DNA of 64,000 nt from Bacteroidota bacterium (GTDB lineage: Bacteria; Bacteroidota; JABWAT01), in contig JAKLJL010000001.1 of the NCBI GenBank assembly GCA_023151185.1, forward strand, positions 496,001 to 560,000, given 5' to 3'. The notes below the pieces were generated by a model that had not been told where the DNA came from, did not search any database, and was given only the letters and a program-made list of their open reading frames with translations. This document shows, piece by piece, positions 29,959-32,239 of the stretch. A program made the translations under genes and the position numbers. Position 1 is the first letter of the stretch, and every line of letters begins with the position of its first letter.

Positions 29959-29987
29959 TTGACATACTGCCAAACCTTCCGTATACT
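29959..29987 (+). promoter_or_regulatory. Near-consensus sigma70 promoter of the ilv-leu operon
   Basis: TTGACA (29959-29964), 17-base spacer, TATACT (29982-29987). Transcription would start near 29994, about 45 bases before the leader-peptide ATG. Confidence 0.75.
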
Positions 29988-30038
29988 TGCTGAAGGAATT
30001 AAAAAAATCACGACTTCTTCCTTAATTTCTAAAATAAA

Positions 30039-30182
30039 ATGACCAAAGTGCTGACATATCCGGTTTCAATAGTTACAGACAGGGCACCTGGTCGTCTTTT
30101 GTCCGTTTCTTTAACCCTACCGAACCTTCTGCTTCTTGTGGGCCTTACCGTTCTTCTTCTTGGTATTATTACCGTGAACTAA
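30039..30182 (+). CDS. ilv-type leader peptide (47 residues)
   Basis: An ATG-to-TAA frame of 48 codons begins about 45 bases after the predicted transcription start. Its composition is extreme: 13 Leu, 7 Val and 3 Ile in 47 residues. In residues 30-46, 13 of 17 are Leu, Val or Ile (LLLLVGLTVLLLGIITV), and Thr fills two more. It sits directly upstream of ilvB, whose products are these amino acids, and is followed by competing hairpins. This matches the logic of the enterobacterial ilv leaders, where ribosome stalling at scarce codons sets downstream transcription. There is no obvious Shine-Dalgarno; AAAATAAA precedes the ATG. A small membrane peptide is the main alternative. Confidence 0.7.
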   Translation: MTKVLTYPVSIVTDRAPGRLLSVSLTLPNLLLLVGLTVLLLGIITVN

Positions 30183-30511
30183 GAACATAATGGTCAGCCT
30201 GAAGATCTAACTCCCAAAAAACAAAAACCCAGGCTGACCAGCCTGAAGAATCAGCCGGAACGGCAGACCCAGATTTCATATTTGAACTGAGGTAATGTAG
30301 TGGCTGTTTATTATCAATACTCACCGCAATGGTCAGAGCCGGAATCCAGTGCATTCCGTGACAACCCGGGTAAAATGCCAGGTGCTGACTGCTGCCGGTT
30401 AAGGCATCACCCATCAAACCCTCTTTCCGTCCCGAAGTTTACCCATCCCGAATCTTTCAGTTTGTTACCAACCTGTCCGTTTCCCGGACCCAAAATCGTA
30501 TGGAGACAATT
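30183..30511 (+). other. Untranslated ilv leader between leader peptide and ilvB
   Basis: About 330 bases with no credible gene. Competing stems occupy 30191-30245. Smaller hairpins are at 30340-30358 (CGGAAT / ATTCCG) and 30475-30489 (GTCCG / CGGAC). TGGTCAG at 30330-30336 could also pair with CTGACCA at 30234-30240. I found no GC stem followed by a T-tract, so a classic intrinsic attenuator is not evident. Confidence 0.5.
30191..30245 (+). promoter_or_regulatory. Mutually exclusive attenuator-like stems
   Basis: TGGTCAGCCTG (30191-30201) pairs perfectly over 11 bases with CAGGCTGACCA (30230-30240). The same CAGGCT (30230-30235) can instead pair with AGCCTG (30240-30245) in a tight GACC-loop hairpin. 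Both cannot form at once. The 5' arm begins 9 bases after the leader-peptide stop, so a ribosome at the stop codon would mask it, while one stalled earlier would not. Confidence 0.55.
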
Positions 30512-32239
30512 ATGAGTCAGACCGGAAAAGAATTAAACGGTGCAGAAATTTTTCTGGAATCCCTCCGAAAAGAAGGAGTGGATACCATCTTTGGCTATCC
30601 GGGTGGGGCTGTGCTCGGAATTTATGATAAACTGTATGACTGTGATTTTATCCATCACATCCTGGTCCGGCATGAGCAGGGGGCAGCCCACATGGCAGAG
30701 GGATATGCCAAGGCAACCGGCAAGGTTGGGGTTGTGCTGGTCACTTCAGGTCCTGGTGCAACGAATACCGTTACCGGGATCGCCGACGCCTACATGGATT
30801 CAATTCCTCTGGTAGTTTTTACCGGTCAGGTGCCCTCAAAATTAATCGGTAATGATGCCTTTCAGGAAGCGGATATTGTCGGGATTACCCGTCCGATCAC
30901 CAAACATAATTTTCTGGTCAAGGATGTTGAAGAGCTTGCTTCCACCATTAAAAAGGCATTTTTCATTGCGTCTACCGGACGGCCCGGTCCTGTTCTCATT
31001 GATATGCCCAAAGATATGCTGGCAAAAACAACCCGGTTTGTTTACCCCGACCAGGTCGATATCAAAGGGTATAAACCCACCATCAGTGGTCACTCCCAGC
31101 AAATTAAAAAGGCAGCAGCAGCCTTCCGGAAAGCTAAAAGACCCCTTCTGTACGTTGGCGGCGGCGTCGTTATGGCCGGTGCACACCGTGAACTGGGGTT
31201 ACTGGCTCAGGAAGCAGGAATCCCGGTGACGATGACCCTTCAGGGGTTAGGTGCCTTCCCGATGACAGATCCACTTTCATTGGGAATGCTTGGTATGCAC
31301 GGAACCTTCTGGGCCAACATGGCAACCGAAAACTGTGACCTTCTGGTTTCACTGGGTGCCCGGTTCGATGACCGGGTGACAGGAAATACAGAGACCTTTG
31401 CCCGGAATGCCTATAAAATTCAGGTTGATATTGACCCGACGGCTATCGACAAAAACGTTCGGGTCGATCTGCCGATTGTCGGTGATCTGAAATCCGTTCT
31501 CGCTGATCTGCTGACCGAACTTTCAGAAAAACCGGTTCAGTCTGACTACTCGGACTGGTGGACCATGATTCAGCAGTGGAAGGATGCCTGCCCGCTGGAG
31601 TATGACAACCACGATGGAAAACTCAGAGCCCAGTTTGTGCTTCAAAAAATATCAGAAAAGGTTAAAGGCCAGGCTGTTGTGGTCACTGACGTGGGCCAAC
31701 ATCAGATGTGGGCAACCCAGTGGATACAGTTTGACCACCCCCGGTCGCACATTACCTCAGGCGGACTCGGAACCATGGGATTTTCGGTTCCCGCTGCAAT
31801 CGGAGCTGCTTTTGCCGTAACGGACCGGCCGGTAATTTCGATTTCGGGAGATGGCGGATTTCAAATGAATATGCAGGAACTGATCACCGCCGCACACCAC
31901 AAACTTCCGGTCAAGTTTATCATCCTGAATAACAGTTTTCTGGGAATGGTCCGCCAGTGGCAGGGACTTTTTTACAAGGAAAAATTCAGCTTTACAGACC
32001 TGTCAGCCTCAAACCCGGACTTTGTGAAAGTGGCTGAAGCTTTCGGGTGCAAGGGATTGTCGACAGACTCACCGGATGAGGTTGATGCCCTTCTGGATGC
32101 CGTTCTTGCTTATAATGAGGGTCCGGTTCTTGCCGAATTTAAGGTGGTGAAGGAGGAAATGGTTTTCCCGATGGTGCCTTCAGGCGGCTCGATGCGGGAT
32201 ATTATGGTAAAACGTCTTGACCCGAACCGTCTGGTCTAA
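30512..32239 (+). CDS. ilvB: Acetolactate synthase, catalytic subunit
   Basis: 575 residues from the ATG at 30512; ATG 30500 is in frame, but GGAGA lies just ahead of 30512. A ThDP enzyme joining two pyruvates to acetolactate, or pyruvate with 2-oxobutanoate. It has the catalytic Glu in HEQGAAHMAEGYA (about residue 51), the FAD/central domain (LGMLGMHGTFWAN, GARFDDRVTG), and the ThDP-Mg motif SGDGGFQMNMQEL...NNSFLGMVRQWQ in the C-terminal domain. It is the first structural gene after the leader; ilvN follows after 26 bases. Confidence 0.97.
   Translation: MSQTGKELNGAEIFLESLRKEGVDTIFGYPGGAVLGIYDKLYDCDFIHHILVRHEQGAAHMAEGYAKATGKVGVVLVTSGPGATNTVTGIADAYMDSIPLVVFTGQVPSKLIGNDAFQEADIVGITRPITKHNFLVKDVEELASTIKKAFFIASTGRPGPVLIDMPKDMLAKTTRFVYPDQVDIKGYKPTISGHSQQIKKAAAAFRKAKRPLLYVGGGVVMAGAHRELGLLAQEAGIPVTMTLQGLGAFPMTDPLSLGMLGMHGTFWANMATENCDLLVSLGARFDDRVTGNTETFARNAYKIQVDIDPTAIDKNVRVDLPIVGDLKSVLADLLTELSEKPVQSDYSDWWTMIQQWKDACPLEYDNHDGKLRAQFVLQKISEKVKGQAVVVTDVGQHQMWATQWIQFDHPRSHITSGGLGTMGFSVPAAIGAAFAVTDRPVISISGDGGFQMNMQELITAAHHKLPVKFIILNNSFLGMVRQWQGLFYKEKFSFTDLSASNPDFVKVAEAFGCKGLSTDSPDEVDALLDAVLAYNEGPVLAEFKVVKEEMVFPMVPSGGSMRDIMVKRLDPNRLV

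Follow-up and report, generated by a model that had tools for sequence, protein, structure and literature searches.

Between a promoter-like sequence and ilvB, the window analysed here (a stretch of 64,000 nt from a Bacteroidota bacterium) contains a short frame rich in codons for branched-chain amino acids (BCAA). This arrangement raises the question of whether the frame serves as a sensor for the operon that follows it, in the manner of the leader-peptide attenuation that is established for the enterobacterial ilv operons. The frame and its surroundings comprise the following features:

29959 to 29987, plus strand: sigma70-like promoter TTGACA-17 bp-TATACT, 11/12 consensus match, predicted start at about 29994
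30039 to 30182, plus strand: leader peptide ORF, 47 codons and TAA, with homologues in two congeners (L002, L003), in L004 of the same family and at about 70 loci in other families
30126 to 30170, plus strand: control-codon run CTT CTG CTT CTT GTG GGC CTT ACC GTT CTT CTT CTT GGT ATT ATT, assigned from the sequence and from codon bias across leaders
30512 to 32239, plus strand: ilvB, acetolactate synthase large subunit, first gene of ilvBNC-leuBACD (TIGR00118, 813 bits, cut-off 538)

Translation of the frame from ATG to TAA yielded the peptide MTKVLTYPVSIVTDRAPGRLLSVSLTLPNLLLLVGLTVLLLGIITVN. Both its location between a near-perfect sigma70 promoter and ilvB and its composition (13 Leu, 7 Val and 3 Ile, with Leu, Val or Ile at 13 of the 17 residues 30-46) had been claimed by the sequence-only reading and were borne out. 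Among 793 window frames of 20-100 codons, the leader showed the highest count of these three residues per 17 residues (13; runner-up 11). None of 100 shuffled versions of the upstream region scored as well as the promoter, which is kept in the relatives L002 (11/12) and L004 (10/12) and also at g28 and f34 loci. Since it lies upstream of the leader, the leader and the operon would, by sequence, be carried on one transcript, as is expected of an attenuator. The genes 3' of the leader were assigned with NCBIfam models to ilvB, ilvN, ilvC, leuB, leuA and leuC/leuD-type genes, in agreement with the claim that the operon serves the synthesis of Leu, Val and Ile.

Downstream of the leader stop codon, two complementary segments were found:

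30191 to 30201, plus strand: segment 3, TGGTCAGCCTG, 8 nt past the stop codon, with covariation over 41 loci
30230 to 30240, plus strand: segment 4, CAGGCTGACCA, exact 11-bp complement of segment 3, with covariation

This post-stop hairpin (30191-30201/30230-30240), which is absent from the sequence-only reading, is the second half of the element. Segment 3 began 4-14 nt after the stop codon of every leader and segment 4 followed about 20-50 nt beyond. The consensus over 41 aligned loci was GGTCAATCCC / GGGATTGACC. In this alignment 94% of the cells were paired, a percentage that is inflated because the arms had been picked by complementarity, a bias which is addressed in part by controls with the partner slid by one column, where pairing fell to 50-57%. 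Double-sided changes were observed at 9 of the 10 pairs, with 45 compensatory cells, and these values were reached by none of 500 shuffles. The helix also occurs in family-specific versions, namely GGTCAGCCTG in the window group, AGGTTATTCCC in g28, GCCAGAGGTTA in f16 and GGCCAATCCC in f44/f50. Such versions and the compensatory changes are harder to explain by the picking of arms. Within the genus of the window the helix is invariant.

The loop between segments 3 and 4 varied in sequence and in length (about 20-55 nt) across loci. It is A-rich in all genomes of the window's class and in most other families it is not. Several Rhodothermia families (loops of L025, L144, L163, L169 and L055) share a motif (G)CAC(T/C)TC after segment 3, and in Rhodothermus this motif extends to 10-bp complementarity with the Shine-Dalgarno (SD) region of ilvB. 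The deep conservation of GGTCAATCCC/GGGATTGACC might also be expected of a metabolite riboswitch, a T-box or a protein-binding site to which the frame is secondary. However, neither the sequence nor the length of the loops is conserved, which leaves no evident binding pocket, while the coding frame and its codons are. Moreover, searches of Rfam at the gathering score and at a permissive E-value gave no credible match in the region, including T-box, ilvB/ilvB-OMG, ppGpp and leu leaders. Such a sensor is hardly credible here.

The sequence-only reading had proposed a comparison of relatives for a short frame in which Leu, Val and Ile codons are kept and the remainder is variable, and the outcome was positive far beyond the genus. 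The class of the window genome was represented by only 4 genomes in the searched set. A leader was present upstream of ilvB in both other congeners (L002 and L003) and in L004, the sole other member of the family. The peptides of these relatives, MNHMQTYSSAIPVDSAYGNSLPYFINLPNLLLLVGLTILLLGIITLK and MNQTTTATTSLFNTGIPVAVSGSVTRPTLLLAGLVILLSGIITLG, differ in their N-terminal halves and keep the BCAA-rich C-terminal tail. Leader and post-stop hairpin occur together not only within the genus and the family but also in no fewer than 10 other families. Equivalent leaders occur in other classes of Bacteroidota, namely in the genus g28, the family f34, Rhodothermus, Salinivenus and relatives (L125 and L128) and the families f14, f16, f49, f50, f51 and f54; L098, a Rhodothermus sp. 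locus, has the same leader as L056. In the ilvD-first operons of Ignavibacteria, a leader preceded ilvD at 17 of 20 loci (15 detected by script; L208 and L212 by eye). Thus, the position of the leader tracks the first gene of the operon, whether ilvB or ilvD. The leader was not found at the one Chlorobium-type locus examined (L203).

A covariance model (R1) built on the 41 loci matched 15 of 60 relatives and 77 of 196 Rhodothermia, with one match per genome; it gave no match in the f8 genomes searched. Sixty-four of the 77 Rhodothermia matches lay directly before ilvB, 8 before ilvD-ilvB, 4 others before ilvB or ilvD and 1 at the end of a contig. The model had been given sequences from about 20 of the 77 matched genomes and from none of the rest, though many of the latter are congeners. 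Genomes that did not match may still carry the element, as the fast filters drop weak matches and known loci (e.g. L202 in G007) were missed.

Codon usage was compared between the last 20 codons of 58 leaders and the ilvB genes of the same loci, one gene per locus serving as reference. Leucine was encoded by CTA in 26%, CTT in 35% and CTG in 10% of cases in the leader ends, as against 2%, 16% and 40% in ilvB, and ATT accounted for 85% of the isoleucine codons as against 30%. The skew was strongest in f16, where CTA made up 30 of 35 leucine codons of the leaders and none in the ilvB stretches. In the window leader, CTT accounted for 8 of 13 leucine codons, compared with 23% in the window genes (table from 31 long window frames), so that it is enriched, though not rare. 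The synonymous control codons are therefore under selection. Leucine (374 codons) and isoleucine (285) outnumbered valine (72) in the leaders, and for this reason leucine and isoleucine are the likely regulatory signals. In E. coli, CUA has been described as the most suitable codon for a leu attenuator, and in Salmonella changes from CUA to CUG reduced the sensitivity of the leu attenuator (PMC1183508); since CUA is favoured for leu attenuators both by theory and by experiment, the observed skew towards CTA and ATT is what a sensor of tRNA charging needs.

These data also bear on the idea that a small hydrophobic membrane protein is made from the frame, with BCAA richness reflecting a transmembrane helix and proximity to ilvB being incidental. 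In length and hydrophobicity, the C-terminus would suffice for a single helix. The N-terminal halves, however, cannot be aligned between families, and the strong synonymous codon skew is neither needed by nor predicted for such a protein; in addition, a covarying hairpin always follows 4-14 nt after the end of the frame, which was found only before ilvB or ilvD. Taken together, a membrane protein is most improbable.

Two further segments were identified as competing partners of the hairpin arms:

30138 to 30149, plus strand: segment 2, GTGGGCCTTACC, located within the leader (same position in L002 and L004) and a weak partner for segment 3
30240 to 30245, plus strand: segment 5, AGCCTG, competing partner of segment 4 in the hairpin CAGGCT-GACC-AGCCTG (30230-30245), exclusive with 3:4

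Compared with codon-shuffled leaders, the 2:3 pairing was not significant in the window (z 0.1), in L002 (-0.4) or in L004 (-1.1). With z about -3, it did better than the shuffled codons in several f44 loci and in the majority of loci from g28, Rhodothermus and f16, where segment 2 takes the forms GGGGAATATCC in g28 (codons of a SEGN motif), GGGATGACCGC in Rhodothermus, AAGGGATTGCCGTC in f44 and CTAATTTCTGGC in f16. The 4:5 hairpin gave z values of 2.7 in the window (1/100 shuffles), 2.3 in L002 and 1.3 in L004, with means of 1.9-2.5 in the window group, Rhodothermus, f50 and f44. Its equivalents were CCGGGG...CCCCGG in Rhodothermus, GTGAAGG...CCTTCAC in f50 and GAGGGG...CCCCTC in f44, with one more in f49; it was weak or absent in g28, f54 and f14. 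In f16 (19 sequences) the 4:5 pairing reaches into the SD sequence of ilvB, with 90% of the cells paired and 8 compensatory cells; none of 500 shuffles matched the paired cells or the double changes, and slid controls paired in at most 46%. Mutually exclusive pairings around the leader stop codon are thus present, with covariation for 3:4, the 4:5 pairing in the window and 2:3 in other families. As 2:3 was not significant in the window and 3:4 is invariant in the genus, the switch in the window leans on homology. Judged by their sequences, the order of the segments (codon run with segment 2, stop codon, 3, 4, 5) and their exclusivities correspond to a trp-type attenuator with the names shifted by one.

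The tails of the leaders share G-I/L-I motifs across families (GIIT, GLIG, GIIS), which would be consistent with a nascent chain that stalls the ribosome through contacts in the exit tunnel, independently of any shortage of tRNA. In many families, however, the Gly-Ile codons (GGG/GGT/GGC ATT) coincide with segment 2, so the pairing of this RNA with segment 3 explains the motif. The tails also vary widely (LILLS, LIITV, AILPG) and the synonymous codon bias points to sensing of tRNA, which makes an arrest peptide very unlikely.

As for the output step, no intrinsic terminator hairpin with a U-tract was found between the leader and the first gene at any of the 71 loci. The sequence-only reading had compared the arrangement with classical attenuation as in the enterobacterial ilv operons; the sensor architecture of the leader agrees with this comparison, but the terminator/antiterminator does not, and the output is consequently not classical intrinsic termination. 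On the minus strand of the window, the segment 4/5 hairpin followed by TTTTTGTTTT (30247-30228) reads as an intrinsic terminator. An intrinsic terminator at the window hairpin was rejected as a candidate, the sole terminator-like match being on the minus strand and no U-tract being present in the 71 loci. The next translation start usually follows soon after segments 4 and 5 and belongs either to an N-terminally extended ilvB (Rhodothermus, f16, f49) or to a bridging frame, ORF2. In the window the latter consists of:

30287 to 30292, plus strand: SD-like CTGAGG preceding the bridging frame; the block around it is conserved in L002/L003
30300 to 30515, plus strand: ORF2, bridging frame of 71 codons with a GTG start and a stop that overlaps the ilvB start, with similar frames in relatives

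Bridging frames were present at 3 of 3 loci of the window group, 5 of 5 in f50 and 6 of 7 in f44, and at 16 of 30 long-gap loci, where 4.6 were expected from shuffles; at most g28 loci none was seen. The ORF2 peptide is not conserved, and the differences between L002 and L003 are mostly residue-changing substitutions. In Rhodothermia, the conserved enzyme portion of IlvB is preceded by an N-terminal extension that varies (L025, L167, L055), and in short-gap families IlvB starts right past the attenuator.

Sequestration of the SD sequence by an alternative hairpin was detected in f16, in Rhodothermus (loop:SD) and at two f54 loci, weakly in L004 and not in L001 or L002; in the window it was not significant. 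Pairing of segment 4 with the SD sequence was rejected as a universal rule, being confined to f16, part of f54 and L004. A pairing between the control codons and the SD sequence downstream gave no signal (mean z +0.5) and was likewise rejected. Equilibrium folding at 39 loci, in which a masked ribosome was stepped through the leader, revealed no consistent change in SD accessibility and thus speaks neither for nor against a translational step. At the Ignavibacteria loci L198, L201, L205 and L216, a TATATCTGA(A/G)-like motif was observed between segment 5 and ilvD; this motif could form a hairpin with the SD region of ilvD. In f16, a TATATC before ilvB resembles it.

With the same sensor, the OFF state could also consist of Rho-dependent or hairpin-only termination of transcription in place of blocked translation. 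Positions 30381-30490, in the second half of ORF2, are C-rich and G-poor (28 C to 11-14 G per 78 nt) and would be a possible Rho site if untranslated; translated ORF2 could shield this stretch, Rho is encoded in the window genome, and terminator-less cys leaders of mycobacteria have been explained likewise (PMC1262725). A translational step is favoured, on the other hand, by the competing f16 hairpin on the ilvB SD with its compensatory changes and by the SD complementarity of the Rhodothermus loop, and short-gap loci leave little room for Rho. Termination as the output is possible, if on balance doubtful. Given that a U-tract is lacking, the OFF state probably works through blocked translation of the next frame. 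This is the favoured reading of the sequences, with Rho as a possible second step, and a translational output appears best supported in the Balneola-type relatives.

The leader, its codon bias, the 3:4 covariation, the place before ilvB or ilvD and the presence, across many families, of competing pairings (2:3 and 4:5) are seen in the sequences themselves. A conserved frame with biased codons and a covarying hairpin at the position of an attenuator supports the leader-attenuator reading proposed at the outset, and from it we infer ribosome stalling, the direction of the switch and the output step. With a probability of about 0.8, ilvBNC-leuBACD is controlled by a cis-acting, ribosome-stalling attenuator of the ilv leader type. 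In this attenuator, a ribosome would translate the 47-codon leader and, when charged Leu or Ile tRNA (less so Val tRNA) is short, would slow on the C-terminal codon run, on or just 5' of segment 2. Segment 3 would then be free to form 3:4, segment 4 would be kept from segment 5 and the genes would be ON. When amino acids are ample, the ribosome would reach the stop codon, where its footprint may cover the start of segment 3, or it may leave and allow 2:3 to form. With segment 3 blocked or paired with segment 2, segment 4 would fold with segment 5 and the genes would be OFF, presumably because translation of the next frame is blocked (in the window ORF2, which is coupled to ilvB; in families with a short gap, ilvB). 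A second OFF step might follow, with Rho terminating transcription within 30381-30490, where C is abundant and G scarce. A broader proposal, which we consider slightly less than an even bet, is that, through a deeply conserved RNA element unlisted in Rfam, a terminator-free attenuator of this kind extends across the non-Bacteroidia classes of Bacteroidota, that the following frame has its translation switched by the ribosome stalled on the leader, and that in some lineages, the window included, the sole task of ORF2 would be to carry ribosomes, and protection from Rho, into ilvB.

Vitreschak et al. (2004) reportedly mentioned candidate attenuators in Bacteroidetes/Chlorobi. No description of the element was found in the literature on Rhodothermus, Salinibacter or Bacteroidota, in a search that left most subscription journals outside its scope. 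A transcript map of Flavobacterium psychrophilum (2021), a member of the same phylum but of another class (Bacteroidia), hints in one sentence at leader-peptide attenuation of amino-acid operons, and its main text contains no ilv element (PMC9723704). The element shares with the leu, ilvGMEDA and ilvBN attenuators of E. coli and Salmonella a short leader with BCAA control codons near its stop before a BCAA operon, skewed synonymous codons (CUA in leu; PMC1183508) and alternative pairings around the stop codon. It differs from them in that a U-tract terminator is lacking, the leaders are longer (about 45-90 codons), the frame itself contains segment 2 and there is no sequence homology. Leader-peptide attenuation of ilv has been predicted or shown in Actinobacteria (PMC1262725, PMC10272879, PMC11857589). 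The Corynebacterium ilvB-II motif and the actinobacterial ilvB leaders likewise have an I/L/V-rich uORF before ilvB(N)C, once per genome, with covarying stems (PMC10272879, PMC1262725); their uORFs, however, are only about 15-17 codons long and are followed by a terminator hairpin with a uridine run, whereas the leaders described here are longer, have a hairpin without a uridine run and belong to a different phylum. For the Firmicute S. aureus, a leucine-rich attenuator peptide of the ilv-leu operon is described (PMC5794164), that is, a BCAA-rich leader before an ilv-leu operon outside Proteobacteria, a likeness drawn from that description. Translational attenuators of the erm/cat type also employ four RNA segments and a stalled leader ribosome that frees the SD sequence of the next gene, comparable to the segment 4 hairpin over the SD sequence in f16. 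They sense an antibiotic, however, and not the supply of amino acids, and SD sequestration was not significant in the window. The sequence-only reading had regarded such an arrangement outside Proteobacteria as being of interest. An ilv leader outside Proteobacteria is not new in itself, since such control is already known from Actinobacteria (PMC1262725, PMC10272879) and, by the description cited, S. aureus (PMC5794164). What is new is a terminator-free, phylum-scale and Rfam-unlisted form of a known type of regulator.

The leader frame merits annotation and the covariance model is fit for deposit. The element offers a clean case in which a ribosome-stall sensor is conserved and the classical terminator is missing, so that the output, whether translation or Rho, is directly testable, and culturable relatives for such tests exist in Rhodothermus and Salinibacter-type bacteria. 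Through it, leader-peptide sensing of BCAA would reach a large, little-studied section of the Bacteroidota that lies outside the gut and flavobacterial classes.
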